Below are positions 36,638 to 64,000 of a stretch of 64,000 nucleotides of DNA, piece by piece. The notes under the pieces are model-generated. The model saw only the letters and a program-made list of their open reading frames with translations. It was not told the origin of the DNA and did not search any database. Every line of letters begins with the position of its first letter. Position 1 is the stretch's first letter. The translations under genes were made by a program, and so were the position numbers. Origin of the DNA: Pectobacterium sp. A5351 (GTDB taxonomy: Bacteria; Pseudomonadota; Gammaproteobacteria; Enterobacterales; Enterobacteriaceae); assembly GCF_028335745.1 (NCBI RefSeq), contig NZ_CP116477.1, positions 2,232,001-2,296,000 of the forward strand, given 5' to 3'.

Positions 36638-37732
36638 ATGAGAAATTATGTCAGCTTCAGGAATGTTCAGAAGACCTATGACGGCGACCGCCTGATCGTC
36701 AAAAACCTGAATCTGGATATTCGTGAAGGTGAATTCCTGACCCTGCTTGGGCCATCCGGCTCGGGAAAAACCACCAGTTTGATGATGCTCGCCGGGTTTG
36801 AAACCCCGACGCAGGGGGAAATCCTGTTACGCGATGCACCGTTGCACCATCTCCCGCCACATCAGCGTGACATCGGCATGGTGTTTCAGAACTACGCCCT
36901 GTTTCCGCACATGACCGTCGCAGAGAACCTGGCGTTTCCGTTGTCCATCCGTCGCCTGAACCGTGCCGATATCAAAGAGAAAGTGGATCGGGTACTGGAT
37001 CGCGTGAAGCTCACCAGTCTGGCCGACCGCTACCCTGCACAAATGTCTGGCGGCCAGCAGCAGCGTGTCGCGTTGGCTCGGGCGCTAGTCTTTGAACCCA
37101 AATTGGTACTGATGGACGAACCGCTGGGCGCGCTGGATAAACAGCTGCGCGAACATATGCAGTTGGAAATTAAAGAGCTACATCAGTCGCTGGAGTTAAC
37201 CGTAGTGTACGTGACTCACGACCAAAGCGAAGCGATGACCATGTCCAACCGCGTCGCGGTGTTTAACGATGGCGTGATTCAGCAAATGGACAGCCCCAGC
37301 GACATCTACGAAAAACCGGAAAACGCGTTTGTGGCGCAGTTTATCGGCGAAAACAATACGCTGCTCGCCACACGCGCCGAGGCCGAAGGCGCATTCTATC
37401 GGGCAACGCTGGACGACGGCACCTCGCTGCGCGCGCTGAAAGTCCGCCCCAGTTCACCGGGTCGAAAAATCACCCTCTGCATCCGTCCGGAACGTATTCA
37501 CGTCAACGCGGCTCACGTCGATGACGGCATGCAGCACGTCAAAGCCCGCATTCAGCAGTTCATCTATCTGGGCGATCACGTCAGGATGATGACAGAAGTG
37601 GCGGGTCAGCCGCAGTTTATGGTGAAACTTCCCGCCAGCGAAATTCAGCCGCACTGGAAAGCCGGTACCGAAGTCAATCTGTCATGGCAGCCAGAACACC
37701 TGCGCGCGCTGGATAGCATCGTGATGCATTAA
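36638..37732 (+). CDS. PotA-like ABC transporter ATPase
   Basis: A 364-residue importer ATPase: Walker A GPSGSGKTT, signature MSGGQQQR, Walker B LVLMDEPLGALD, H-loop VTHDQSEAMT. A C-terminal TOBE domain (about residues 275-360) follows. GGAGAG lies before the start. It is most likely the missing ATPase of the binding-protein/permease operon at 28337-31574, now separated from it by gabDT and the regulator and read in the opposite direction. Confidence 0.9.
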   Translation: MRNYVSFRNVQKTYDGDRLIVKNLNLDIREGEFLTLLGPSGSGKTTSLMMLAGFETPTQGEILLRDAPLHHLPPHQRDIGMVFQNYALFPHMTVAENLAFPLSIRRLNRADIKEKVDRVLDRVKLTSLADRYPAQMSGGQQQRVALARALVFEPKLVLMDEPLGALDKQLREHMQLEIKELHQSLELTVVYVTHDQSEAMTMSNRVAVFNDGVIQQMDSPSDIYEKPENAFVAQFIGENNTLLATRAEAEGAFYRATLDDGTSLRALKVRPSSPGRKITLCIRPERIHVNAAHVDDGMQHVKARIQQFIYLGDHVRMMTEVAGQPQFMVKLPASEIQPHWKAGTEVNLSWQPEHLRALDSIVMH

Positions 37733-51351: not shown

Positions 51352-52319
51352 TTATGGCAGCGGCGTCGTTGCCATTGCCACAATGGTGCGGATGCCTTCC
51401 AGATAGTTACCGAGACGTAAATTCTCATCAAAACTATGCTGATTATTATCGGCATTCACCAGAGGAACGATGACGTAAGGCACTTTTAGCACGCTGACCG
51501 CCCCGCTCATTGGCAACGTTCCGCCCATCATACGGTTCTTCTCCGGTGCGCCGCCGCGTTCGCACCGAAAACCGTCATATCGATTTGGATAGAGCCACGA
51601 TTGCCGAAGTTGATGCCAGGCTTATTGCTGGACGGCATCGCGCCGTCATAAATCACCATCCCATCACTTTTCAGCAACGTCAGATGATCGGCCATCACCG
51701 TCGTCAGACCGGGCGACCCTTTTTCCTCTTCGGAATCCAGCAGCACCTTGATGTTGACGGCAGGTTCAACGCCTTTATCTTTCATCGCGTCCACGGCGGC
51801 GAGAAACATTGCGATCGGTCCTTTATCATCGGCCGATGCCCGGGCGAAGAGACGCCATTCCGGGTTGATATCGCCTTTCAGAAGACGCGATTCGGGCAGT
51901 GTTTGCCATTTGCCCGCGGCATCTTTTTCTTTCAATACGGGCTGCCACGGCGGTGTTTGCCATTCAGCGGGATTCACGGGCTGTCCGTCAAAATGCATGT
52001 AGAACAAGATAGTTTTACGATCGGCTCTTGGCGTACCCAGCTCAGCATAAACCAGCGGCTTGTCACCATTCGTTAGCTGCTGCGTGGTGAAGCCCCGCTT
52101 CTGAAAGGCTTTTTCCAGCCAGTCAGCATTGCGCTGGATATCCGCAGGCACGGCGGCATCATTGGGCAGAGTGAGTAATTCGAGATATTCGGGGAAGCTG
52201 TGTTGCGCGTAACGCTCAGCCTCGGCAGAGGCCAGCACCAGCTGTGCGCTGGCAGGTAAACAGAGAATAGTGGCCGACAGCGACAGCGCCGCCAGCGTCA
52301 ATTTTTTACCGGGAATCAT
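51352..52319 (-). pseudogene. Secreted M20 metallopeptidase, internally deleted
   Basis: The first 255 or so residues are intact: signal peptide (LTLAALSLSATILCLPASA), FYMHFDGQPVN, ARASADDKGPIAMF and LLDSEEEKGSPG metal motifs. After FGANAAAHR the frame shifts and soon stops. In another frame downstream the natural C-terminus is found (RMMGGTLPMSGAVSVLK, VPLVNADNNQHSFDENLRLG, to a TAA at 51352-51354). About 150 residues of the dimerisation lid domain are missing between them. This is a deletion plus frameshift, so no active enzyme is expected. Confidence 0.87.
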
Positions 52320-52460: not shown

Positions 52461-53504
52461 CTAACGCCCTTTTTGCAGCGTTTCTTTCACCTGACCAATC
52501 AGCTCGCGGCGGAAATCACCCAGGCGCGGTTTGTCATCCAGCCACGGCAGCGGGCGGCACAGTTCCATCGCCTTAATACCCAGCCGTGCGGTCAGCAACC
52601 CTGCACCAATGCCCTGTGCGGCACGGGTTGATAGTCGTGCCGCAAGATCCTGCGACATCCAGTCCATACCAATTTCCCGCACCAGTTCCGATGCGCCAGC
52701 AAACGCGATATTGACCAGCACCAGCCGGAACAGGCGAATGCGACTGAAATAGCCGAGTTCTATGCCGTACAGCGCAGCAATACGATTAATCAGACGCAGG
52801 TTGCGCCAGGCGATAAAGGCCATATCCACCAGCGCCAGCGGGCTGACGGCGATCATCAAGGTCGATTCCGCCGCCGAACGGCTGATTTCACGCCGTGCCT
52901 GCGTGTCGAGTACGGGCTGAACCAGACGTGCATAAAGCTCCAGCACTTCGCGGTCGTTGTGGGTTTCATGGAGTGAAGCCTGCCAGCGTTGTATCGCCGG
53001 ATGGCCGCTATCCAGCCCTGCCTGACGCGCCAGCTTTTCACAGAATTCGCGCCCCCGCCCCACGCCGTGGCTGTGTAGCAGATCGCGGGCCACATCACGC
53101 TCTTCCGCGCGTTCCCGTAAGCGATAGAGCCGTCGCCACTCGACGGCCAGAGAACCGACGCCCGCCGCGATAATCAGGCTACCCGCGGTAATACCGCCTA
53201 ACGCGATCCAATCTTGCTGCACCCAGGCGTTGTGCAATGACTGCACGCCCTGTGCCAGTGCGCTAACGCCAAACAGCCCTATTCCTGCCATCACCATACG
53301 CCGCCACAGGCTGCGTTTCGGGCGCAGCGCCGCGCTGACGGCCTCTTCCGCGATGCCTTCTTCCGGTACTTCTTCTTCGCGGCTGATAGGGGAAAATGGC
53401 GTACCGCTCTGCTCGTCAAAGGCTAATCCGGCACGCAATTGCGGTTGCGGCTCTTGCGGTAAAGCCTCATCGAATGTGACGCGGGGTTTCAGTGGTTCGC
53501 TCAT
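52461..53504 (-). CDS. ycjF: YcjF, DUF697 inner-membrane protein
   Basis: A 347-residue protein with two membrane segments around residues 70-120 ([41 protein letters not shown]), then the DUF697 domain. It overlaps the ycjX stop by four bases. In E. coli ycjXF belongs to the stress-responsive psp regulon; no psp genes are seen here. Function is not well defined. Confidence 0.92.
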
Positions 53505-54913
53505 CGCAATTTATCCTTTAACAAAAAGTCCATGACCGTATCCAACCGGATATGCGGCAACGGCGTATCTACCGTCATTTCTCGCGGACGAAATTGATCG
53601 AAATGGAAGCCCTGCGTTTGCCAGAATGCCGCCCCCGGTAAACGTGCTGGCACTTCACCGGGATAGACCGTCAGCGGCTGACCATCGCTGAGCCGATGCC
53701 CTTTCAGCGCGGGAATTTTCTGCCCCTGATGATCGACAACCCCGCTTTGCGTTGACTGGATTGACGCAATGCCTTCACAGCGCATATCGATGCCTTCAAA
53801 CGCGGCGTTCTGCCACGCCTCTTGCACCAGTTGCTGAAGCAAAGACACCAGATTGGCGTGCTGATCGGCGGTAATGTGATCCGCTTTACTCGCCGCAAAC
53901 ATCAGCTTGTCGATACAAGGCGAGAACAAACGACGGAACAGCGTACGTTTCCCGTAGTGAAAACTTTGCATCAGTTGGGTCAGCGCCAGCCGCATATCGT
54001 TAAACGCGTGAATACCGCTATTGAGCGGTTGCAGGCAGTCAACCAGAACAATCTGCCGGTCAAAGCGCACGAAGTGATCCTTATAAAACCCTTTGACGAC
54101 CGACTGACAGTAATAATCAAAACGCTTACGCAGCATGCCGATATTGGTTTTCTCATCCGCCTGCGCCAGTCTGGCTTCACCGATCTCATTCACCTGCGGC
54201 CAGGGGAAAAATTGCAGCACCGGCGCACCCGCCAGATCGCCCGGCAGCACAAACCGCCCCGGTTGAATAAAGTGCAGCCCTTCCTGCTTGCAGCGATGAA
54301 GATAGTCGGTGTAAGCCTGCGCGACCTCAGCGAGCTGGTTTTCATCTACTGGTGCCAGCGGATCGAGTTTCTCACACAGCGCCAGCCAGGGCTTCGCCCA
54401 CTCAATGCGTCCCCCTTGCAGCAAACCGCTCATCTGCTGCGACCAGCTCAAATAGGTTTGTTCCAGCAGCGGTAGATCCAGCAGCCATTCGCCGGGGTAA
54501 TCGACAATTTCCAAATAGAGCGTCGAGGTATCTTTAAAGTGGCGCAGCAACGAGTCTCTGGAGCGATAACGCAGCGCAAGACGGATCTCACTCACGCCGC
54601 GCGTCGGCGTCGGCCAGTCCGGCGGGGAGCCATACAGCACCGCCATGCCTTCATCATAGGCAAAGCGCGGCACGCCCAGATCGCGCTGCGGCACGCGTTT
54701 TACCCCCAGCAAACGCTCTTCGCGCACGGGGGAAAACATCGGCAAATGTGCTCCGTTATGGGTGTTCAATAATTGATTAACGAACGCGGTGATAAACGCG
54801 GTTTTGCCACTGCGGCTCAACCCGGTGACGGCAAGACGCAGGTGGCGATCCACACTGCGATTGACCAGTGAGTGAAGTTCGTTTTGTAGTCGACTCATTG
54901 AATGATCCATCAC
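53501..54913 (-). CDS. ycjX: YcjX, DUF463 P-loop GTPase-like protein
   Basis: A 470-residue protein with an N-terminal P-loop [10 protein letters not shown] (residues 33-42), the family signature [17 protein letters not shown] (Walker B-like) and [12 protein letters not shown]. It is translationally coupled to ycjF. It is named a predicted ATPase/GTPase connected with phage-shock-type stress. Upstream lies an ERIC rather than the usual neighbours. Confidence 0.93.
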
Positions 54914-54929
54914 GCCTGTAGTTGAGAAA

Positions 54930-55056
54930 TATACCCGTCATACTTCAAGTTGCATGTGCGTTGGCGACGTTCACTCACCCGAATCACTTACCTGAGTAAG
55001 CTCATCGGGATTCCTTCCCTTGCCGCCTGCCTGAAACTCGAATTATTTAGGGTATA
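54930..55056 (+). repeat. ERIC element, copy 2 (127 bp)
   Basis: A complete ERIC: TATACCC (54930-54936) pairs with GGGTATA (55050-55056), exactly 127 bp. It lies just upstream of ycjX and 98 bp before the IS. Confidence 0.95.
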
Positions 55057-55154
55057 TACTGTTGAGAACAATTATGGAGCTGAAAACTACATATCGCTGA
55101 GAAATATATCGTATCAATATAATGAAATCAGACAAACGCCTCACGCCGACATAA

Positions 55155-56098
55155 GTGATCCTACCCACGTAATGTGGACACAGCCCTAAGCGAGGTTCTG
55201 GTTTTCAAATTGTTCCGGGCTAAGCCCGCCGCAAGCGCTATGGCGACGCCAGCGATTGTCATCGCACTCGATATAATTAAACACCGCCGTTCGCATTATT
55301 TCCCGACTGCCAAAGGACTCTCCATCGATACATTCCATTTTCAGCGAATGAAAAAAACTTTCCACGCAGGCATTATCATAGCAGCATCCTTTGGCACTCA
55401 TGCTCCCGCGCAGGTGATGCCGCCCCAGCAACGCCTGATAATCCCCTGAACAGTACTGGCTACCACGGTCGGTATGCACGATTACCTGTTTTGGCCGTTT
55501 TCTCCTCCACAGGGCCATCTCAAGCGCATCACAGCTCAGCTGTGCCGTCATCCGCGATGACATCGACCAGCCGATAACCGCCCGCGACCATAAGTCGATG
55601 ACTACCGCCAGATACAGCCAGCCTTCATCTGTACGTAAGTAGGTGATATCTCCTGCCCATTTTTGATTCGGGCCGCTGGCGATAACGTCTCGCTTCAGCA
55701 GATTTTCAGACACTGGCAGGCAGTGCTCCCGGTAGCTGACCGGGCTGAACTTCCAGGCAGCTTTTGCCCGCAGCCCCTGACGGCGCAGACTGGCAGCAAT
55801 GGTTTTCACGTTATAGTGTGGCAGTTCATCAGCCAGTCGTGAGGCACCGTACCACTGTTTGGCATGATTGAACGCCTTGCTGACGGCATCATCGCAGACA
55901 AGCCGGAATCGCTGACGCGAGTTGGTCTGATGGCGGCAGCAACATCGATGCGTTCTGCAAGCTTCAGGGCTTCGTTGCGGAATTCAGGCGTATGTTGCTT
56001 ACGTGGTTTTTTACTGGTTGATACGGGTTTCGTCATGAGTCACCTCTGGTAGAGAGTTTACTCACTTAGTCGCGTGTCCACTATTGGCGGATAGGATC
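55155..56098 (-). mobile_element. IS3-family insertion sequence, internally deleted (944 bp)
   Basis: Ends GATCCTA...GTGGACAC and the complementary GTGTCCAC...TAGGATC form imperfect terminal inverted repeats. The element encodes OrfA and OrfB on the minus strand but is about 250 bp shorter than intact relatives because of a deletion across the orfA-orfB junction. The 3 bases at the two sides differ (AGT left, ACT right), so no target duplication is left at this copy. Confidence 0.9.
55186..56036 (-). pseudogene. IS3-family transposase, OrfA/OrfB with deletion
   Basis: OrfA begins at 56036 ([19 protein letters not shown], helix-turn-helix start) but after RIDVAAAI it jumps into OrfB sequence in a wrong frame. 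OrfB sense continues as [21 protein letters not shown] and the DDE catalytic domain from the GTG at 55807-55809. That domain has the motifs [18 protein letters not shown] and [18 protein letters not shown], with D, D and E present. The OrfA leucine zipper and the OrfB N-terminus are lost, so self-transposition is unlikely. Confidence 0.87.
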
Positions 56099-56213
56099 AC
56101 TTCAAGCCGCATGTGCGTTGGCTACGTTCATTCACCCGAATCACTTACCTGAGTAAGCTCATCGGGATTCTCACTCTTGCCGCCTTCCTGCCACTCGAAT
56201 TATTTAGGGTATA
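56099..56213 (+). repeat. Right 115 bp of an ERIC, after the IS right end
   Basis: Starts ACTTCAAG directly at the IS end and runs to GGGTATA at 56207-56213. It lacks the first 12 bases of an ERIC. With the 15 bp at 37883-37897, sharing ACT, it makes exactly 127 bp. Confidence 0.9.
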
Positions 56214-56445
56214 TAATGCTAATGCCGCAAGATATACTCACAAGAAAGCATCTTATGGATATAGCAAAAAAAACCTATACGGCATGATATTTCTCATCGA
56301 CAACAGACATTTTCATTGAACGGAGGGTAATATATTTAGCGCATAAGTTTATCTACCACAGCAGGTAGTTATCACCTCGTATATCTAAGCAAAAAGAAAA
56401 ATATTTAAGTCCCAAGAACAATGTTATAAAAAGGAGTTTTTAACT

Positions 56446-57198
56446 ATGTTTTCAACATATGCCCACCAGACTGTTACAAAAACATTTTATCGCCCCATTG
56501 AAGCAGCGATTAGGTGGAGTAATTTATTATCAGTAGAATCTGAGATACTAGAAGAGTTCAATGGATATCCGATTGTTTTTTTACATCGTACATCTCAAAC
56601 CTGGCCAATCCTTTCATTAAATCAGGAAAGAATTATTGATGGGCTTATTAATGGTGAGTTACGTCACAGCAAACGGGGGATTACGAGTTCCGTAGCTCTG
56701 GATTTGGACGATCCTGATTTAACTATCCGGCATATTGATCTGAAAAATTGGATGATATCATACTACCCCAATGAGAAACCTGATTTTTTATTTTCACCAC
56801 AAGAACAGCTCATCCCCCCTACAATTAATTATAATTTTATTCAGATAATTCTAGCTGAACTTGAAGCAATGAGAATAAAAAACAACAGCCTTGAAAATCA
56901 AAATAAAAATATAACAAACGATTATCAGTCACTACAAGAAAACTATAAATCAGCAATAAAAAACCATGTAAATCCCATTTTAGGTGAAAGGAGTGAAAGC
57001 ACCTATTTAACAATCATCGGGGCTTTAATTAGTTTATACAATCAGCGTTCGCCATCAGGTCAACCCTATACACTATTTCAGTCTCAGGAATCCGTTATTT
57101 CAGCCTTAATTGCCCATTATGGAGATAAACGAGGAGTGTCAAAAAGTACGCTTGAAAGTAAATTTGCTCAAGCCAAGCGCCAACTCAATAATACGTAA
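56446..57198 (+). CDS. Unknown protein with central coiled coil
   Basis: A 250-residue soluble protein with a good ribosome site (AAGGAG, nine bases). Residues about 125-165 form a coiled coil (ILAELEAMRIKNNSLENQNKNITNDYQSLQ). The C-terminal about 70 residues (ERSESTYLTIIGALISLY, SQESVISALIAHYGDKRGVSKSTLESKFAQAKRQL) look like a small helical DNA-binding or multimerising domain often seen at the end of accessory-element proteins. The gene is AT-rich and lies next to IS and ERIC debris. Function unknown. Confidence 0.7.
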   Translation: MFSTYAHQTVTKTFYRPIEAAIRWSNLLSVESEILEEFNGYPIVFLHRTSQTWPILSLNQERIIDGLINGELRHSKRGITSSVALDLDDPDLTIRHIDLKNWMISYYPNEKPDFLFSPQEQLIPPTINYNFIQIILAELEAMRIKNNSLENQNKNITNDYQSLQENYKSAIKNHVNPILGERSESTYLTIIGALISLYNQRSPSGQPYTLFQSQESVISALIAHYGDKRGVSKSTLESKFAQAKRQLNNT

Positions 57199-57311
57199 CC
57201 CCTAACCCCAGCTAGTGCAGAACTTACCCCATTCAGGGTGAATATTGTGGCGTTTTTTTCCATAGTAGATTTCCGCGTCATTCTATTATGTCTGAGGGAT
57301 AATCTACTATT

Positions 57312-59276
57312 ATGCATAAACAGGATCGTTTTTTTGCATTACCACATTTTTCACCATCTCGAATCCAACTCGCTTTATTACACGATAGAATATCGTTCCA
57401 GTTACTCTCTAGACTTAGCAAATATCTCTTTCTCATCACACTGTTGGCGATGGCATCTCTTAACAAGAGCATGGCTCTAACGCCCGCAGAAACGCGACAT
57501 TTGGTGGATAGAACCGGATTCGGCACAACTCAGCAGGATATTGAACGTTTCAAAAACATGACACGGGAACAAGCCGTGGATTATCTGCTAGGTACACTTG
57601 ATACCCCTTTTTACACTCGTCCTCCAGCATTCATATCGGAACCTTATCCTAATTATCGGGAAGAAGGTTGGACTGAGCAGAAAATGATCTTCTTTCGCTT
57701 CAATGAGATTAACCAATTACAGGCATGGTGGTTGCAAGAAATGATTCTTACGCCGACACCATTCGCCGAACGACTCACCTTGTTTTGGCATAACCATTTT
57801 GTCTCCCGGTTTGACAATACGCTCATTACCGCCCCTTTTTTCGATCAACTTACGCTATTTCGGCAAGCTGGAAGCCAGAGTTTTAGATTACTGACGCGGA
57901 AAATTTTGCAAGACCCCATGATGCTAAGTGGGCTAGACAACATCTCCAACACCCGCGATCACCCTAACGAGAATCTAGCCAGAGAATTGATGGAACTTTT
58001 CACGCTGGGAGATGGTAATTACAGTGAGAATGACGTCAAACAGGTTTCTCGTATTCTGGCGGGACATACTGTGAACGCCACACAACAATGGCGTTATCAA
58101 TTCAATGCAAGTGCAGCGGTACCCGGCGAGAAAATCGTATTAGGTAAAAGCATTCAGGGAACTCCCGACGAGGAGCTCGATCAGCTTGTCGATGTTTTAT
58201 TGTCGCAGCCCCAAACCGCCACTCGTTTAGCGAAGAAATTCTACCGAGCCTTTATTTCGCTGGACGACAATCCACAAACGATTGCGACGTTAGCTCAGTT
58301 GCTACGCGATAATGACTACGCTATGAAGCCTTTTCTGCGGGAATTACTACTCAGTCCCGCTTTTTGGCATGAGAAAAATCGCGGGGCACTGGTGAAATCG
58401 CCATTGGACCTGGTTGTTGGTTTTTCCCGCTCTTTTTCACTGGTTCTGCCAGAACAACAGATTCTGCTGGATTACCTTCAAACACTGGGGCAAACCCCGT
58501 TTATGGCTCCTTCCGTAGCCGGATGGGAGGGTGGAATCACATGGCTTGATGGTAAAACCTTGGTCGATCGCTCCAGAATATTACACCGCCTATGGTTGGC
58601 GCGTGAAACCCCTCCACCGCCGACAGATAAAGGGCTACTTATCCGTTTCGCCTCAGAAAGTCGTGGGTTGCCAACTCGCTTTATCGTCACCGTTAACGGC
58701 AAGCCCCTTGCGCGGATTACTGCAACACTGGGAGCGGACACTCGACAAGAACAAGCCTCCAATGAATCCGGTAATCTCAAGCCCATGTGGGAAACCGTTG
58801 CCATTCCCAATGTGCCCGATGTACTGGAAAACGTCACAATCACAATGGATGCCGACGAACCTGGCACTAACCTGTTTGTTAATTGGATTGCCTTTAACGG
58901 CTACCGTTTTTCGCCGAATACGGCTAAATGGGTTCTGCCTGAAGGGTCTCTCTGCCGCCCTGATTCACCGTTGGGAGCGTTTTACTGTAACTTGAGCCTG
59001 TCTTTTGACCTCCGTTCCTCACTCAATACAGAAGATGCGACGTTGGCAGACAGGAACTCACCGCTCAATGCGAACATCGAATATGGTACGGCTCGACTGC
59101 AACCACGGCTTGCTAATTCAGAGACATTATCATTGCCCCTTGCCTCACCGAACTACACCGCTGAGTGGTATCACTCGTTGCTAGCGACCACGCCTTTCAG
59201 GCAAGCCACGAATCAGGATTTCGATGCTGCGGCCTTCAAGGCACTCACTCTCGACCCTGCATTCAACCTGAAATAG
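57312..59276 (+). CDS. DUF1800-family exported protein
   Basis: A 654-residue protein. A basic 35-residue lead precedes a signal-like segment (YLFLITLLAMASLNKSMA), after which the DUF1800 domain begins (LTPAETRHLVDRTGFGTTQQDIERF). Further family motifs are LTLFWHNHFVSRF, NENLARELMELFTLGDGNYSENDVKQVSRILAGH and WEGGITWLDGKTLVDRSRIL. A roughly 120-residue beta-rich insertion (KGLLIRFASESRG...VNWIAFNGYRF), resembling a carbohydrate-binding module, lies before the end. DUF1800 proteins are typically paired with DUF1501 proteins, as here (15-bp gap). Their biochemical role is not established. The third gene of the cluster is a chitin-synthase-like glycosyltransferase. Confidence 0.85.
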   Translation: MHKQDRFFALPHFSPSRIQLALLHDRISFQLLSRLSKYLFLITLLAMASLNKSMALTPAETRHLVDRTGFGTTQQDIERFKNMTREQAVDYLLGTLDTPFYTRPPAFISEPYPNYREEGWTEQKMIFFRFNEINQLQAWWLQEMILTPTPFAERLTLFWHNHFVSRFDNTLITAPFFDQLTLFRQAGSQSFRLLTRKILQDPMMLSGLDNISNTRDHPNENLARELMELFTLGDGNYSENDVKQVSRILAGHTVNATQQWRYQFNASAAVPGEKIVLGKSIQGTPDEELDQLVDVLLSQPQTATRLAKKFYRAFISLDDNPQTIATLAQLLRDNDYAMKPFLRELLLSPAFWHEKNRGALVKSPLDLVVGFSRSFSLVLPEQQILLDYLQTLGQTPFMAPSVAGWEGGITWLDGKTLVDRSRILHRLWLARETPPPPTDKGLLIRFASESRGLPTRFIVTVNGKPLARITATLGADTRQEQASNESGNLKPMWETVAIPNVPDVLENVTITMDADEPGTNLFVNWIAFNGYRFSPNTAKWVLPEGSLCRPDSPLGAFYCNLSLSFDLRSSLNTEDATLADRNSPLNANIEYGTARLQPRLANSETLSLPLASPNYTAEWYHSLLATTPFRQATNQDFDAAAFKALTLDPAFNLK

Positions 59277-59291
59277 ATAAGGATCTCACTG

Positions 59292-60491
59292 ATGACTTTA
59301 CCATTTATACCACTACGGCGTTCGCTTCTCCGTGGCCTTGCCGCCGGTGCATTAACCTCAATGTTACCCCTACGTGGATTAGCGGGGAATACGCTCCCCG
59401 CTAATAAGAACTTAATCATCGTCGAATTATCCGGCGGTAACGATGCATTAAATACCTTAGTTCCCTATCGTGACCCACTGTATCGCCATTATCGACCAAC
59501 ACTGGCGTTAAACACGAACGAATATGCGCCATTGAACGATGACCTTGCATTTAATATTGCCTGGAAAAGGCTTGTGGATATCTTTCAAAAGGGAGAAATC
59601 GCCGTTGTGCAGGATGTGGGCTATCCTTCTCCCAACCTGTCTCATTTCAGTTCGGCTGCGATCTGGGCTAATGGTGCTGATACCCCAACGCTAAAATCCG
59701 GATGGGCGGGCCGTGTTTTGAATACGTACTCGCTTCAGGAGCGGCATCACGATGCCGATGGTATCATTCTCTCTGGCGATCAATCTTTACTCATCCACCC
59801 CGCAACGCAGGCATTGGCACTCCAGGACAGCCGTGCCTTATTGAACGCAGAACTTTCCACACTCACTGCCCTTAAAAATGACAAGGATAACCCTGCTGCT
59901 CGACATATTTTCCAGTTGATGGAAAACACCAGCATGATAAGTCGCCGAATTCAAAGCAAACTACTTGGGCAAAATCGCTTTACCCGATGGTTTACACAGA
60001 ATGGCTATATTGAGCCACAAAATGCACAAGCAGCCACCGCACTCTGGTTAATAGAAAACAACGTCCGTTCACCGCTATACAAGATCAGTTTATCTGGCTT
60101 CGATTTACATACTAATTTACGCGGTGAACATGAACGTCTACTCAGCAAAGTAGAAACCTTATTGCTTGGATTGCGTCGGGGACTCATCGAGATAGGCGCG
60201 TGGCAAGATAGTCTGATCATGGTGCATTCGGAATTCGGTCGTCGCCCACAGGAAAATGCATCAGGCGGGGCCGATCACGGCACGTGCGGACCGGTCCTGC
60301 TGTTAGGTGGTCACGTCGAAGGCGGTATCTGGGGCGGGCGAAGCCCTCTCGATAAATTAGATAACGACGGTAACCCTTATTTTTCAACCGATTTCCGCTC
60401 GATATACACAACCGTGGCTGAACGCTTTTGGAAACTTCCAGCCATTCATGCTGGGGGAGCATCGTTCTCTCCTCTGAATATTCAACTCTAG
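59292..60491 (+). CDS. DUF1501-family exported protein, alkaline-phosphatase fold
   Basis: A 399-residue protein with a Tat-type signal (RRSLLRGLAAGALTSMLPL), so it is probably exported folded. DUF1501 motifs: LIIVELSGGNDALNTLVPY (metal-binding start of the sulfatase/alkaline-phosphatase-like fold), NLSHFSSAAIWANG, HSEFGRRPQENASGGADHGTCGPVLLLGGHV. The family is predicted to be a periplasmic hydrolase or sulfatase-like enzyme without a known substrate. It directly follows the DUF1800 gene and is followed after 32 bp by the glycosyltransferase gene. Confidence 0.87.
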   Translation: MTLPFIPLRRSLLRGLAAGALTSMLPLRGLAGNTLPANKNLIIVELSGGNDALNTLVPYRDPLYRHYRPTLALNTNEYAPLNDDLAFNIAWKRLVDIFQKGEIAVVQDVGYPSPNLSHFSSAAIWANGADTPTLKSGWAGRVLNTYSLQERHHDADGIILSGDQSLLIHPATQALALQDSRALLNAELSTLTALKNDKDNPAARHIFQLMENTSMISRRIQSKLLGQNRFTRWFTQNGYIEPQNAQAATALWLIENNVRSPLYKISLSGFDLHTNLRGEHERLLSKVETLLLGLRRGLIEIGAWQDSLIMVHSEFGRRPQENASGGADHGTCGPVLLLGGHVEGGIWGGRSPLDKLDNDGNPYFSTDFRSIYTTVAERFWKLPAIHAGGASFSPLNIQL

Positions 60492-60523
60492 TCAACCACA
60501 TTATTTCACAGGACGCGATTTTT

Positions 60524-62434
60524 ATGGAAATGATAGGGATACCCGCTCACCGCCCCATGAATACCGATATCACACGCAGGCAAACGCTCTCGGCGATCCG
60601 GCAAGGCTGCCGTGATAATCTCGTTATAGATGGAGATCTTCCCAGTACCCAGGCGGACATTCTGGTTTGCCTCACGCTCTATAACGAACCAGCGTCCATG
60701 CTCGCTGATACGCTAGCTGGCCTGATACGCAACCAGCAACAGTTGGCAGCGACATTTACCCATTGTCCGCCAAAAGTCATGATTTGCATGATGCTTGACG
60801 GCACGGACTCTGCACACCCTTCAACCGTTTCACTTTTAGAAAAACTGGATCTTACCCCACGATCTGCGGCAACGCCCGTTCACGGACAAAACTCGCTGAC
60901 GCTTCAGGTAAGTAACCTCCCCGCCTCGCAAATTCTGCACTGTTGCGATCAACCGTCTACAGGGGAATATCCAGACCAGTCAATCAGCCTGCTGCTCGCC
61001 AACAAACAGCATAATGCCGGAAAACTGGATAGCCACGCGTGGTTTTTTTGGGGCGTTGGTAGCGTCATTAAGACTGAATTTGTACTGCAAATTGATACCG
61101 GTTCTGTTACGGAATCAGCATGTCTGATGCACCTTTTACAACACATGTGGCAGGAGCCGCACTGTGCAGCCGTCGCCACACGCATTATGCTGCCAACGCC
61201 GACCAACTATAACCCGGTACAAAACTGGCAATACGCTGATTTTATATGGGAAAAAGTCAGCGATTGGGCAATGGGTAATGCACTGCACTACTTAGAGGTG
61301 GTTCCCGGACAATGCAGCATGATTCGCTGGCATCAGTTTTGTGAAAATCATGGGCACCCCCAAGCCCCGGTTGACATTTACCTACGCGGATTAGTGCCAA
61401 ACACCCTGTTAGAACATAATATTTTTCTGGCAGAGGATCGGGTTATGGGGCTCGAATTGGTCAGACATCACCACGGCAGCGCCGTGCGCTATGAGCAGGA
61501 TGCCGTGGTACGCACAGATACCGTCCCCACGCTGGCAGAACTCCTGCGCCAACGTCGACGCTGGATTAACAGCACCACCGCGGCGCGTTTACATTCGCTC
61601 TCCCAACTACCTGCCGTACTAAGACAGCCGATGCTTTCTCCTCTGCGACGCGGAAAGATTGCTCTTGCTGTACTGTGGGGTTTTTTACAACTAATCACCC
61701 AATTTATTATGCCGGCGCTTACCGCAATATTGTTGGCCACAGGTGTTACACATCTCGTCAACATGCTTCAACCCACCACGCCTTCTTCTTATATCACAAC
61801 AGTGGGGCTCGGTCTGGCGCTGCTTTTTCTGTCGCTATGGGGTGGCATCCTCTTGATTAACCGCACCTTGCCCCTGAATGTAAAAACGAGTGTATCCTAT
61901 CATTGTGTTGCTATGTCGTTGCTGGGTGGGGTCATGGGCTGCACATTCCTGTTAGCGTTCGTGAGTATGACAGTACAGAACCTGCTCATTATGGGGGCAA
62001 CGCTATTACTGATCTGTATTTCTATTAGCCTGCATTCATTTGGTTATTTAAGGCAGTTTATGCGGTGGGGCTGCTTTTACCTCGTCCTGCTGCCGATTTT
62101 CAATCTCTATCTGGCCACCTATGCCATTGCGAATACCAACGATGTCAGTTGGGGAACTAAAGGATTAACCACACATCAAGTTGGGGAGACAACACGAAAA
62201 CGCTGGTCAAAGAGTCGCGATATGCTGCTAGCCATCTGGATTGTTAGCTCGCTGGCCATCGCCCTGCTATTTTTACTAAAGATTTCTCCAGCACAATGGC
62301 TGCCCATCAGCCACTATATTGCGGCATTTTTCTTTCTCCGTACCATGCTATCGGCTTCAGTCAGTATTGGTAGCAGCATCACCAAACACCGGCGTATTCA
62401 GCGCAAAAAGATCAAGGCATCCATCGCGTACTGA
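60524..62434 (+). CDS. Fungal-type chitin synthase-like family 2 glycosyltransferase
   Basis: I choose the ATG at 60524 (636 residues); the open frame before it lies in the DUF1501 gene. The motif order of fungal chitin synthases is present: TLYNEP (51-56), WFFWGVG (173-179), the IDTG site (190-193, LDVGT in fungi), VPGQCSMIR (260-268), AEDR (303-306), the product-binding QRRRW (343-347) and SWGTKG (542-547). Six or more membrane segments lie between about 390 and 620. These enzymes polymerise UDP-N-acetylglucosamine into beta-1,4 chains and pass them through their own membrane channel. A NodC-type synthase would lack SWGTKG. Sugar specificity and activity are inferred. Confidence 0.85.
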   Translation: MEMIGIPAHRPMNTDITRRQTLSAIRQGCRDNLVIDGDLPSTQADILVCLTLYNEPASMLADTLAGLIRNQQQLAATFTHCPPKVMICMMLDGTDSAHPSTVSLLEKLDLTPRSAATPVHGQNSLTLQVSNLPASQILHCCDQPSTGEYPDQSISLLLANKQHNAGKLDSHAWFFWGVGSVIKTEFVLQIDTGSVTESACLMHLLQHMWQEPHCAAVATRIMLPTPTNYNPVQNWQYADFIWEKVSDWAMGNALHYLEVVPGQCSMIRWHQFCENHGHPQAPVDIYLRGLVPNTLLEHNIFLAEDRVMGLELVRHHHGSAVRYEQDAVVRTDTVPTLAELLRQRRRWINSTTAARLHSLSQLPAVLRQPMLSPLRRGKIALAVLWGFLQLITQFIMPALTAILLATGVTHLVNMLQPTTPSSYITTVGLGLALLFLSLWGGILLINRTLPLNVKTSVSYHCVAMSLLGGVMGCTFLLAFVSMTVQNLLIMGATLLLICISISLHSFGYLRQFMRWGCFYLVLLPIFNLYLATYAIANTNDVSWGTKGLTTHQVGETTRKRWSKSRDMLLAIWIVSSLAIALLFLLKISPAQWLPISHYIAAFFFLRTMLSASVSIGSSITKHRRIQRKKIKASIAY

Positions 62435-62608
62435 ATAAATTCTATTTAGGCAATTAATGGGGGATTAATCACAACTCAAAAATATTTTTTCTTAATGACA
62501 GAATATCGCTGGAATTATTCCCTGATATCTATTTAAACTCAATACCGTTATTAGAGACTATCCTTTCCTATTTTAATTTTCAGGCGCGTTATTCAATAAT
62601 AACGCCTT

Positions 62609-62757
62609 AGGGCCTATTTCAGTAGGTGTTTATTGGCATAGCCCGTTTGGGCTCGGGCAGCGCAGAAAAACCGAAGCGTATACATAGTACGTGAAGATTT
62701 TGAGCGCTGCCCAGGCCCAAAATGGCAAGTAAAATAGTCCTAATGGGATAGGTTCTT
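62609..62757. repeat. Long imperfect palindrome (repeat C)
   Basis: Outer arms CCTATTTCAGTAGG and CCTAATGGGATAGG are roughly complementary. Inner arms GTTTGGGC and GCCCAAAA, and GGGCAGCGC with GCGCTGCCC, pair well. The whole can fold into one long hairpin, the form of a miniature transposable or REP-like element. Confidence 0.65.
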
Positions 62758-62760
62758 ATT

Positions 62761-62786
62761 CTGCAACTTGACGTATGACGGATATA
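62761..62786 (-). repeat. ERIC terminus remnant
   Basis: CTGCAACTTGACGTATGACG and the following GATATA match the end of an ERIC read in reverse (CATGCAACTTGAAGTATGACG, GGTATA). The rest of the element is absent. Confidence 0.6.
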
Positions 62787-62823
62787 TTCTAATGGATAGG
62801 GATTTCAATATAAGGGAATCGGT

Positions 62824-63603
62824 ATGGATACGTCGCACTTCTTTGCCCTGTCTGGGAAAACCGCACTCATCACCGGAGGATCGCGTGGATTAGGGCTGCA
62901 AATTGCTGAAGCACTGGGTGCACAAGGGGCGCATATTATTCTTTCAGCGCGTCACACTGATGAATTACAGACCGCGCAGTCACACCTATCCTCACTGGGT
63001 ATTCGTGCCGACTGGATTGTCGCCGACAATGCGCAAGATCGCGATATTGAACGCCTCGCAGAGGAAGCCATCGCCAAGACAGGCCAGATAGATATTCTCG
63101 TCAACAATGCCGGTACGGCATTTGGCTCCCCGGCGGAAGACCATGCGATGGCTGACTGGGATCGCGTCATGAACCTGAATATCCGCAGCCTGTTTTTATT
63201 AACGCAGAAAATCGGCAAATGCAGCATGATCCCCCGTCGCTATGGAAAAATTATCAATGTGGCGTCACTTGCAGGCTTGCAAGGCAATCTGCCCGGTTGG
63301 CTGGAAGGTATCGCTTACAGCACCAGCAAAGGTGCCGTGGTGAACTTTACCCGGGCATTAGCAGGCGAATGGGGAGAATTTAATATCACCGTTAATGCGC
63401 TCGCCCCTGGTTTTTTCCCCTCCAACATGACGCAGAACTTGTTGAATCGACTTGGTGTTGATGCACTGGCGCAAAAGTCCCCGCTGCGACGTATTGGTGA
63501 TGATCAAGACTTAAAAGGCGCAGCAATCCTCTTTGCCTCCGACGCCAGTAAATATATTACGGGCCAAATCCTTTCCATCGACGGAGGCATGAGCGCCATA
63601 TAA
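62824..63603 (+). CDS. Short-chain dehydrogenase/reductase (gluconate 5-dehydrogenase-like)
   Basis: A 259-residue classical SDR: TGGSRGLGLQIAEALG, NNAGTAFG, Ser in NVASLAGLQG, YSTSKGA catalytic Tyr/Lys, and the end motif ITGQILSIDGGMSAI. This style is common in 2-keto-gluconate or 3-oxoacyl reductases. Separated from the glycosyltransferase by a 390-bp repeat-containing gap, it is probably a different transcription unit. It may go with the oxygenase-like gene that follows. Confidence 0.88.
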   Translation: MDTSHFFALSGKTALITGGSRGLGLQIAEALGAQGAHIILSARHTDELQTAQSHLSSLGIRADWIVADNAQDRDIERLAEEAIAKTGQIDILVNNAGTAFGSPAEDHAMADWDRVMNLNIRSLFLLTQKIGKCSMIPRRYGKIINVASLAGLQGNLPGWLEGIAYSTSKGAVVNFTRALAGEWGEFNITVNALAPGFFPSNMTQNLLNRLGVDALAQKSPLRRIGDDQDLKGAAILFASDASKYITGQILSIDGGMSAI

Positions 63604-63661
63604 ATACCGCTCACATCATTATTAATGGAGCTCATGGAGGAGGCGCGTAAATATAGCCAAT

Positions 63662-63690
63662 AGGCATGCAACTTAAAGTATGGCAGGTAT
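63662..63690 (-). repeat. ERIC terminus remnant
   Basis: GCATGCAACTTAAAGTATGG and CAGGTATC repeat the reversed ERIC end with three changes. This is a second decayed terminus about 0.9 kb from the first. Confidence 0.5.
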
Positions 63691-63732
63691 CTACGGAGTT
63701 TTTCAGTCGAGCTAATTACAGGAGTAATAGCG

Positions 63733-64000
63733 ATGAAAAGTTGCTTTGATGGATGGTCACCACAAGTCATTGATAGTGAAGATAAGGCAGCGGTTATTGC
63801 GCATATCGAAAAATATCGGTTTGCCATCGTTACCCACGAATGGAAATACGATGATTCCGACTTCAAAAAAATGTCGGCGCTTTATTCGCTGGGGGACATT
63901 TATCAGTCTGACTTTAACCGTCAGGAACATAAAGAGGGCGTATCCACATCCGGGGTAAATCAGATTGGCGGGCTTACACGCGGCACGCATGTCGTTTTCA
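63733..64000 (+). CDS. Start of a possible TauD/2-oxoglutarate-dependent oxygenase gene (partial)
   Basis: The ATG at 63733 follows CAGGAG; 89 codons are visible before the window ends. The sequence (VIAHIEKYRFAIVTHEWKYD, FKKMSALYSLGDIYQSDFNR, QIGGLTRGTHVVF) resembles the N-terminal part of Fe(II)/2-oxoglutarate oxygenases of the TauD group. In those enzymes a helix-strand that reads like GFVVVRG and a LGxI segment precede the metal site. The metal ligands are beyond the window, so the call is tentative. Confidence 0.45.
   Translation, partial: MKSCFDGWSPQVIDSEDKAAVIAHIEKYRFAIVTHEWKYDDSDFKKMSALYSLGDIYQSDFNRQEHKEGVSTSGVNQIGGLTRGTHVVF

Follow-up and report, generated by a model that had tools for sequence, protein, structure and literature searches.

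What does a bacterium make with an enzyme that resembles chitin synthases, and what do the two proteins encoded beside it contribute? This question is raised by a gene trio in Pectobacterium sp. A5351, located in a stretch of 64,000 nucleotides (hereafter the window, to whose positions all coordinates refer). On the forward strand, the trio consists of a DUF1800 protein of 654 amino acids (57312-59276; PF08811, E-value 1.2e-92), a DUF1501 protein with an alkaline-phosphatase-superfamily fold and the arginine pair R9 R10 of a twin-arginine (Tat) signal (59292-60491), and a chitin-synthase-family glycosyltransferase (GT2) of 636 amino acids that carries no aminotransferase fusion and is here called CHS (60524-62434). 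All three open reading frames (ORFs) are intact, and their coordinates agree with the span of 57312-62434 and the gaps of 15 and 32 bp given in the first-pass annotation. The start of CHS was taken as the ATG at 60524, the longest frame beginning at 60428. The claim that no bacterial system of this composition had been described does not stand, since Goncalves et al. 2016 (PMC5122149; this paper, PMC9556331 and PMC12653383 are cited here from excerpts of their text) reported CHS in a dozen bacteria, mostly with genes for a sugar epimerase, DUF1800 and DUF1501 alongside. The locus is a further member of this bacterial chs cassette, sharing with the excerpted examples the genus, the placement of CHS by DUF1800 and DUF1501, and the Tat-exported DUF1501 protein. 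With confidence slightly above even, we propose that it is a divergent member in which CHS would make a chain of N-acetylglucosamine (GlcNAc) that is threaded to the periplasm, bound by the DUF1800 protein and processed by the DUF1501 protein.

Profiles, solved structures and motifs all place CHS in the chitin synthase family. CHS matched the Pfam models Chitin_synth_1 (PF01644; E 1.5e-24, 87.3 bits, cut-off 25) and Chitin_synth_2 (PF03142; E 5.3e-16, 58.8 bits, cut-off 27). Chitin_synth_1N (PF08407), the mark of eukaryotic division 1 chitin synthases, gave no match at E ≤ 0.1, so that of the two profiles proposed in the first-pass annotation, PF01644 and PF08407, the former exceeded its cut-off and the latter was unmatched. 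According to Goncalves et al. 2016 (PMC5122149), bacterial CHS have a short N-terminus without PF08407, a feature that the window enzyme shares. In the PDB, CHS matched seven different sequences down to E ≤ 10; six of these were chitin synthases, all at E ≤ 1e-21; the best were 7wjm_A from the oomycete P. sojae (6.9e-34), yeast Chs1 (1.6e-22) and 7stl (4.2e-22), and the seventh was at chance level (E 1.8). A profile built from 20 bacterial CHS likewise retrieved six PDB sequences at E ≤ 0.01, every one a chitin synthase.

The conserved CHS motifs listed in PMC12653383, which also notes that many non-fungal holders of CHS lack functional annotation, are QXFEY, EDR, QRRRW and WGTKG. The last three occur in this order in the window enzyme, as first read from the sequence. 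AEDR (61430-61441, forward strand) covers residues 303-306, and its E304, D305 and R306 are present in 20/20 aligned bacterial CHS. QRRRW (61550-61564, forward) covers residues 343-347, with R344, R346 and W347 invariant in the same 20 sequences. SWGTKG (62147-62164, forward) covers residues 542-547, with W543 to G547 found in 20/20.

NodC is a bacterial GT2 that produces GlcNAc oligomers. The first-pass annotation had set CHS apart from it by the last motif, and this distinction was upheld: a WGT motif was absent from 6/6 NodC loci, all of which read QQLRW and GEDR, whereas SWGTKG occurred in 15/15 CHS loci. The two enzymes are alike in being bacterial GT2, and differ in that the window CHS reads QRRRW, AEDR and SWGTKG. 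The NodC model TIGR04242 had no genome match at E ≤ 1e-10 and none for CHS in hmmscan at E ≤ 0.1. Goncalves et al. 2016 (PMC5122149) describe NodC as making Nod factors. Two further identities were rejected for CHS, namely PgaC (weakly matched, with E 2.8e-5 and 23.3 bits against a cut-off of 422.3) and an XrtP-associated glycosyltransferase (E 5e-6, 25.4 bits, cut-off 520). The Pfam cut-offs passed, the chitin synthases found in the PDB and the motifs that differ from those of NodC thus agree with the family first assigned.

The catalytic residues could be mapped on PsChs1 (Phytophthora sojae Chs1, PDB 7wjm), whose key residues come from PMC9556331. CHS keeps the counterparts of Glu495, Asp496, Val452, Pro454, Arg536, Arg538 and Trp539, and among the 20 aligned bacterial CHS, V259 is found in 19 and P261 in 18. 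The window enzyme therefore resembles PsChs1, its best PDB sequence match, in catalytic residues and most channel motifs; it differs in length (636 residues against a chain of 913, matched from chain residue 231) and in reading QYADF for QHFEY. Ratios of nonsynonymous to synonymous substitution (dN/dS) between the window and two relatives were 0.07-0.16 for CHS, DUF1501 and DUF1800, with dS near saturation, which points to all three genes being kept working. By its sequence, CHS is a chitin-synthase-family enzyme on which purifying selection acts and which has the catalytic motifs and most of the channel motifs.

In agreement with the first-pass annotation, the three genes form a conserved unit and are not joined by accident in this strain. 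Scanning 84,980 species genomes with a sequence pattern yielded 15 CHS loci, a lower bound, and at 10/15 of these DUF1800, DUF1501 and CHS stand in this order: three Pectobacterium, P. cichorii, R. skierniewicense, three A. vitis, A. taibaishanense and D. oryzae. Gene order is kept across Alpha- and Gammaproteobacteria. In a CHS tree of 25 rows (NodC excluded, two eukaryotic rows, no usable root; rows left out include P0003, P0008, P0017, P0026, P0038, P0068, L033 and L034), a branch supported at 100/100 separates the 11 labelled DUF-linked CHS, together with four unlabelled rows, from the remaining rows. This conservation and the Pfam E-values rule out chance. CHS occurs in 8/25 genomes of the genus (own included) and, at E ≤ 1e-20, in 2/394 genomes of a sample of the order (own included). 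The same eight genomes of the genus hold DUF1800 and orf250, a hypothetical protein (56446-57198, forward strand) that is the fourth cassette member in the genus; the 17/25 without chs are also without DUF1800. A search of 72,556 plasmid records turned up no CHS relative at E ≤ 1e-5, and a megablast search against E. coli genomes gave no match.

The two partner proteins gave insights into what might happen to the chain. The DUF1800 protein is predicted to be exported, judging from an N-terminal hydrophobic helix at residues 25-50 of its AlphaFold model (mean predicted local distance difference test score, pLDDT, 89.8). Its beta-rich, carbohydrate-binding-like insertion, as first described, proved in the structure model and fold comparison to be a beta-sandwich of CBM60 type at residues about 439-571 (58626-59024, forward strand), with CBM60 (PF16841; PDB 2xfd) as the reference. 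VIA rows for DUF1800 mostly span residues 438-593, and VIA and Foldseek were uninformative on the helical core. Meanwhile, the DUF1501 protein (Pfam match E 7.7e-29) adopts the alkaline phosphatase superfamily fold over residues 31-399, bearing out the phosphatase or sulfatase fold initially assigned. This fold is common to ENPP, choline sulfatase, PafA and YejM/PbgA, with identities of 9-15% in VIA rows. An Asp/His/Ser/Glu set, a candidate for the metal ligands and nucleophile, was invariant in 60/60 rows.

Based on these findings, we postulate the following sequence of events. CHS would take cytoplasmic uridine diphosphate GlcNAc and add GlcNAc at the non-reducing end of the chain, with D305 acting as the counterpart of PsChs1 Asp496. 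The beta-1,4-GlcNAc chain would cross the inner membrane through the enzyme's own channel to reach the periplasm, where the DUF1800 protein would bind it via its CBM60-type module. The Tat-exported DUF1501 protein would make or break a phosphate or sulfate ester on the chain or on its carrier, and the resulting chito-polymer or chito-oligomer would be capped, anchored or soluble.

Several observations weigh against this proposal. The first concerns the generality of the partner pair. DUF1800 was found at E ≤ 1e-20 in 89/398 sampled Pseudomonadota genomes. Of the highest-scoring DUF1800 loci outside Pectobacterium, 20 were taken (G265 and G404 were passed over) and stretches of 14 kb scanned in six frames; DUF1501 adjoined DUF1800 on the same strand at 20/20, and CHS was present in the stretch at 0/20, so that chitin is not the base job of DUF1800-DUF1501. 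At 5/15 CHS loci, all distant (26-30% identity), the DUF pair is missing, three of these contigs being only 6-9 kb long, where a missing gene tells little. The module is also open to doubt, since PF16841 had no match at E ≤ 0.1 in the window protein, for which reason we speak of a CBM60-type module: it has the same fold as CBM60 but is unrecognised by the Pfam model, while the homologue P0155 matches it (37.1 bits, cut-off 28.2). The metagenome DUF1800 homologues P0155-P0172 carry CBM60 in 18/18 cases, and the module may not be specific to CHS. As for the enzyme, its QxFEY motif reads QYADF, with D239 in place of Glu432 and F240 in place of Tyr433, and alanine at either of these PsChs1 positions greatly impaired activity (PMC9556331). 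Finally, ChiP had no match in the genome of strain A5351 at E ≤ 0.001, and no outer-membrane exporter appeared among the six proteins to which the Pfam scan was limited.

The generality of the pair would be expected if DUF1800 and DUF1501 formed an exported module working on something else and merely co-transferred with chs, an explanation that we consider unlikely. An insertion-only profile detected 10/10 CHS-linked DUF1800 proteins at E ≤ 1e-45 and 0/20 of the other DUF1800 loci even at E ≤ 10, although the positive result follows in part from how the profile was made, since its 50 rows included close relatives of some of those ten. Maintenance of gene order from Alpha- to Gammaproteobacteria and the joint absence of chs and DUF1800 from the 17 genomes of the genus also speak against mere co-transfer. 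The tie between the DUF pair and chitin in the first-pass annotation is weakened by the 20 loci without CHS, but the insertion sets the CHS-linked DUF1800 proteins apart from those loci. A general exported pair is thus part of the CHS cassette, and its DUF1800 protein there bears a sugar-binding-type module.

The altered QYADF motif raises the possibility that the chain built by CHS is mixed or consists of a different amino sugar instead of GlcNAc alone, which we regard as quite unlikely. In the aligned bacterial CHS the motif is itself conserved (Q236 in 20/20, D239 in 17/20 and F240 in 16/20). It departs from the eukaryotic CON1/CON2 motif set; judging from these residues, CHS is not filed as a eukaryotic-type chitin synthase, yet may work like one. 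Further support for another sugar comes from genes next to chs in relatives. In 6/7 other loci of the genus, CHS continues into a C-terminal DegT aminotransferase, and an epimerase gene comes after it (L010 was scanned, the rest judged by length and similarity), in line with the fusion reported in Pectobacterium and Brenneria (PMC5122149). The separate aminotransferase of P. cichorii fits the DesI and PseC models best, below their cut-offs, and the epimerase of relatives is GalE-like, also below cut-off. Against another sugar stand the mapped catalytic residues, which are kept, and the absence of both genes from the window and from the P. zantedeschiae locus (L013, on the same contig as L020), where neither the C-terminal DegT domain nor the following epimerase was found and constraint on CHS is nevertheless retained in the window. 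Because of these absences, we interpret the aminotransferase and epimerase as dispensable, an accessory branch that probably serves a different amino sugar.

Loss of this branch appears simpler than never having had it, given that the window CHS is nested by fused rows: it branches with four Pectobacterium rows, three of them fused, and the fused Brenneria row comes next (100/99 each). P. zantedeschiae misses about 2.2 kb that P. aroidearum has, and the intergenic stretch at 62429-62608 matches the region after the epimerase gene of P. aroidearum and its P. zantedeschiae counterpart (79-84% identity). A candidate aminotransferase remnant was dismissed, as the 27-residue tblastn match is the CHS tail (the query began inside CHS) and two others are chance (E 4.1 and 6.5). 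Elsewhere in the genome, the best epimerase match has 32% identity, and other DegT aminotransferases are present (13 matches), as they are in all 14 control genomes. The missing genes could also mark the cassette as a decaying, silent relic. The transposase-like ORF just upstream and a promoter scan that found 6 sites where chance alone would give 11.1 fit this idea, which is very improbable considering that four frames are intact and dN/dS lies well below 1. No RNA family matched at the gathering score in 54900-64000.

In P. cichorii, the aminotransferase and the epimerase are separate genes, and a chitoporin-like gene follows the cassette (NF047822, E 3.9e-130, 434.7 bits, below the cut-off of 750). 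Near the same cassette (L022:15802-19143), a single ORF joins an N-terminal GT2 domain to a C-terminal GH81 domain. The chitoporin-like gene bears on the form of the product, for CHS could instead make short secreted chito-oligosaccharides, signals toward plants or microbes and not a structural polymer, an option that we judge possible but on balance improbable. Most of the named CHS holders are presumably plant-associated, which would suit a signal. Goncalves et al. 2016 (PMC5122149) state this habit for several of them and raise the possibility of such a signal themselves, and chs of one Dickeya, as far as the excerpted sources go, adjoins a chitoporin-like gene as that of P. cichorii does. 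Chain length, by which a signal would differ from a polymer, is unreadable from sequence.

The cassette itself is more divergent than its surroundings. A divergent segment at 56430-62277, which ends on the right somewhere between about 62200 and 62430, has 71-72% nucleotide identity (56430 to about 62240) to all four Pectobacterium relatives compared, which along with the missing aminotransferase fusion and epimerase sets the locus apart from the excerpted cassettes of Goncalves et al. 2016. At the protein level, identities are 70-72% for orf250, 73-74% for DUF1800, 78-80% for DUF1501 and 60-63% for CHS. The right flank has 84-86% nucleotide identity in the two relatives sharing it, the downstream gluconate dehydrogenase is 94-97% identical in the 3/7 fetched loci having it, and the core gene ycjX encodes a protein 96-98% identical across 24 other genomes of the genus, with the exception of G021, where it is in pieces. 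The gene that forms the left border of the cassette in relatives is here about 19 kb away and 86-94% identical in 4/4. Given the low identity in the cassette and the higher identity in its flanks, the cassette, including orf250, either derives from a divergent source or represents an allele that diverged long ago. For orf250, no Pfam family exceeded its cut-off; it is 42.6% identical to an ORF of the P. veronii conjugative plasmid NZ_CP039632, located beside AlpA, ParA and ParB.

The left flank is rearranged. The cassette-bordering gene of relatives, which we take to be ABC ATPase-like, lies at 36638-37729, and the gene near the cassette at 53501-54913 is presumably ycjX, which in P. aroidearum (G004) is about 105 kb from the cassette. 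Upstream of orf250 there is a transposase ORF at 55186-55809, which we assume to be IS3-like, with similar repeats on its two sides (about 54930-55058 and 56099-56215). An M20 peptidase ORF at 51528-52319 has 263 residues against models of about 450 positions and is perhaps truncated.

As to the origin of the enzyme, for which the first-pass annotation considered transfer from fungi possible, Goncalves et al. 2016 (PMC5122149) inferred that a eukaryote donated it once. Among solved structures, that of the oomycete is nearest in sequence, ahead of yeast Chs1. Five deep CHS lineages without the DUF pair (L030-L034) were found in Hyphomicrobiales, Bacteroidales, Leptolyngbya, Rhizobiaceae and Thalassocella records; in the Thalassocella record, an ORF of 2572 amino acids precedes CHS. 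These lineages permit a broader and decidedly speculative scenario, in which bacteria would have possessed CHS for long and in diverse forms and would not owe it to a single recent eukaryotic gift, one branch having recruited the general exported DUF1800-DUF1501 pair, with its CBM60-type chain-binding domain, into a machine for chitin synthesis and processing that is spreading among plant-associated bacteria. Experiments on bacterial CHS of this kind were not evident in the titles and abstract openings among the matches listed, in which subscription journals are thinly covered.

With the CBM60-type and phosphatase-type assignments, two domains of unknown function become partners whose roles can be tested, and the generality of the pair, with DUF1800 in 89/398 sampled Pseudomonadota genomes, offers a handle on DUF1800-DUF1501. 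If the product is indeed chitin or a chito-oligosaccharide, plant-dwelling bacteria would make a type of molecule that plants read as the sign of a fungus or a symbiont.

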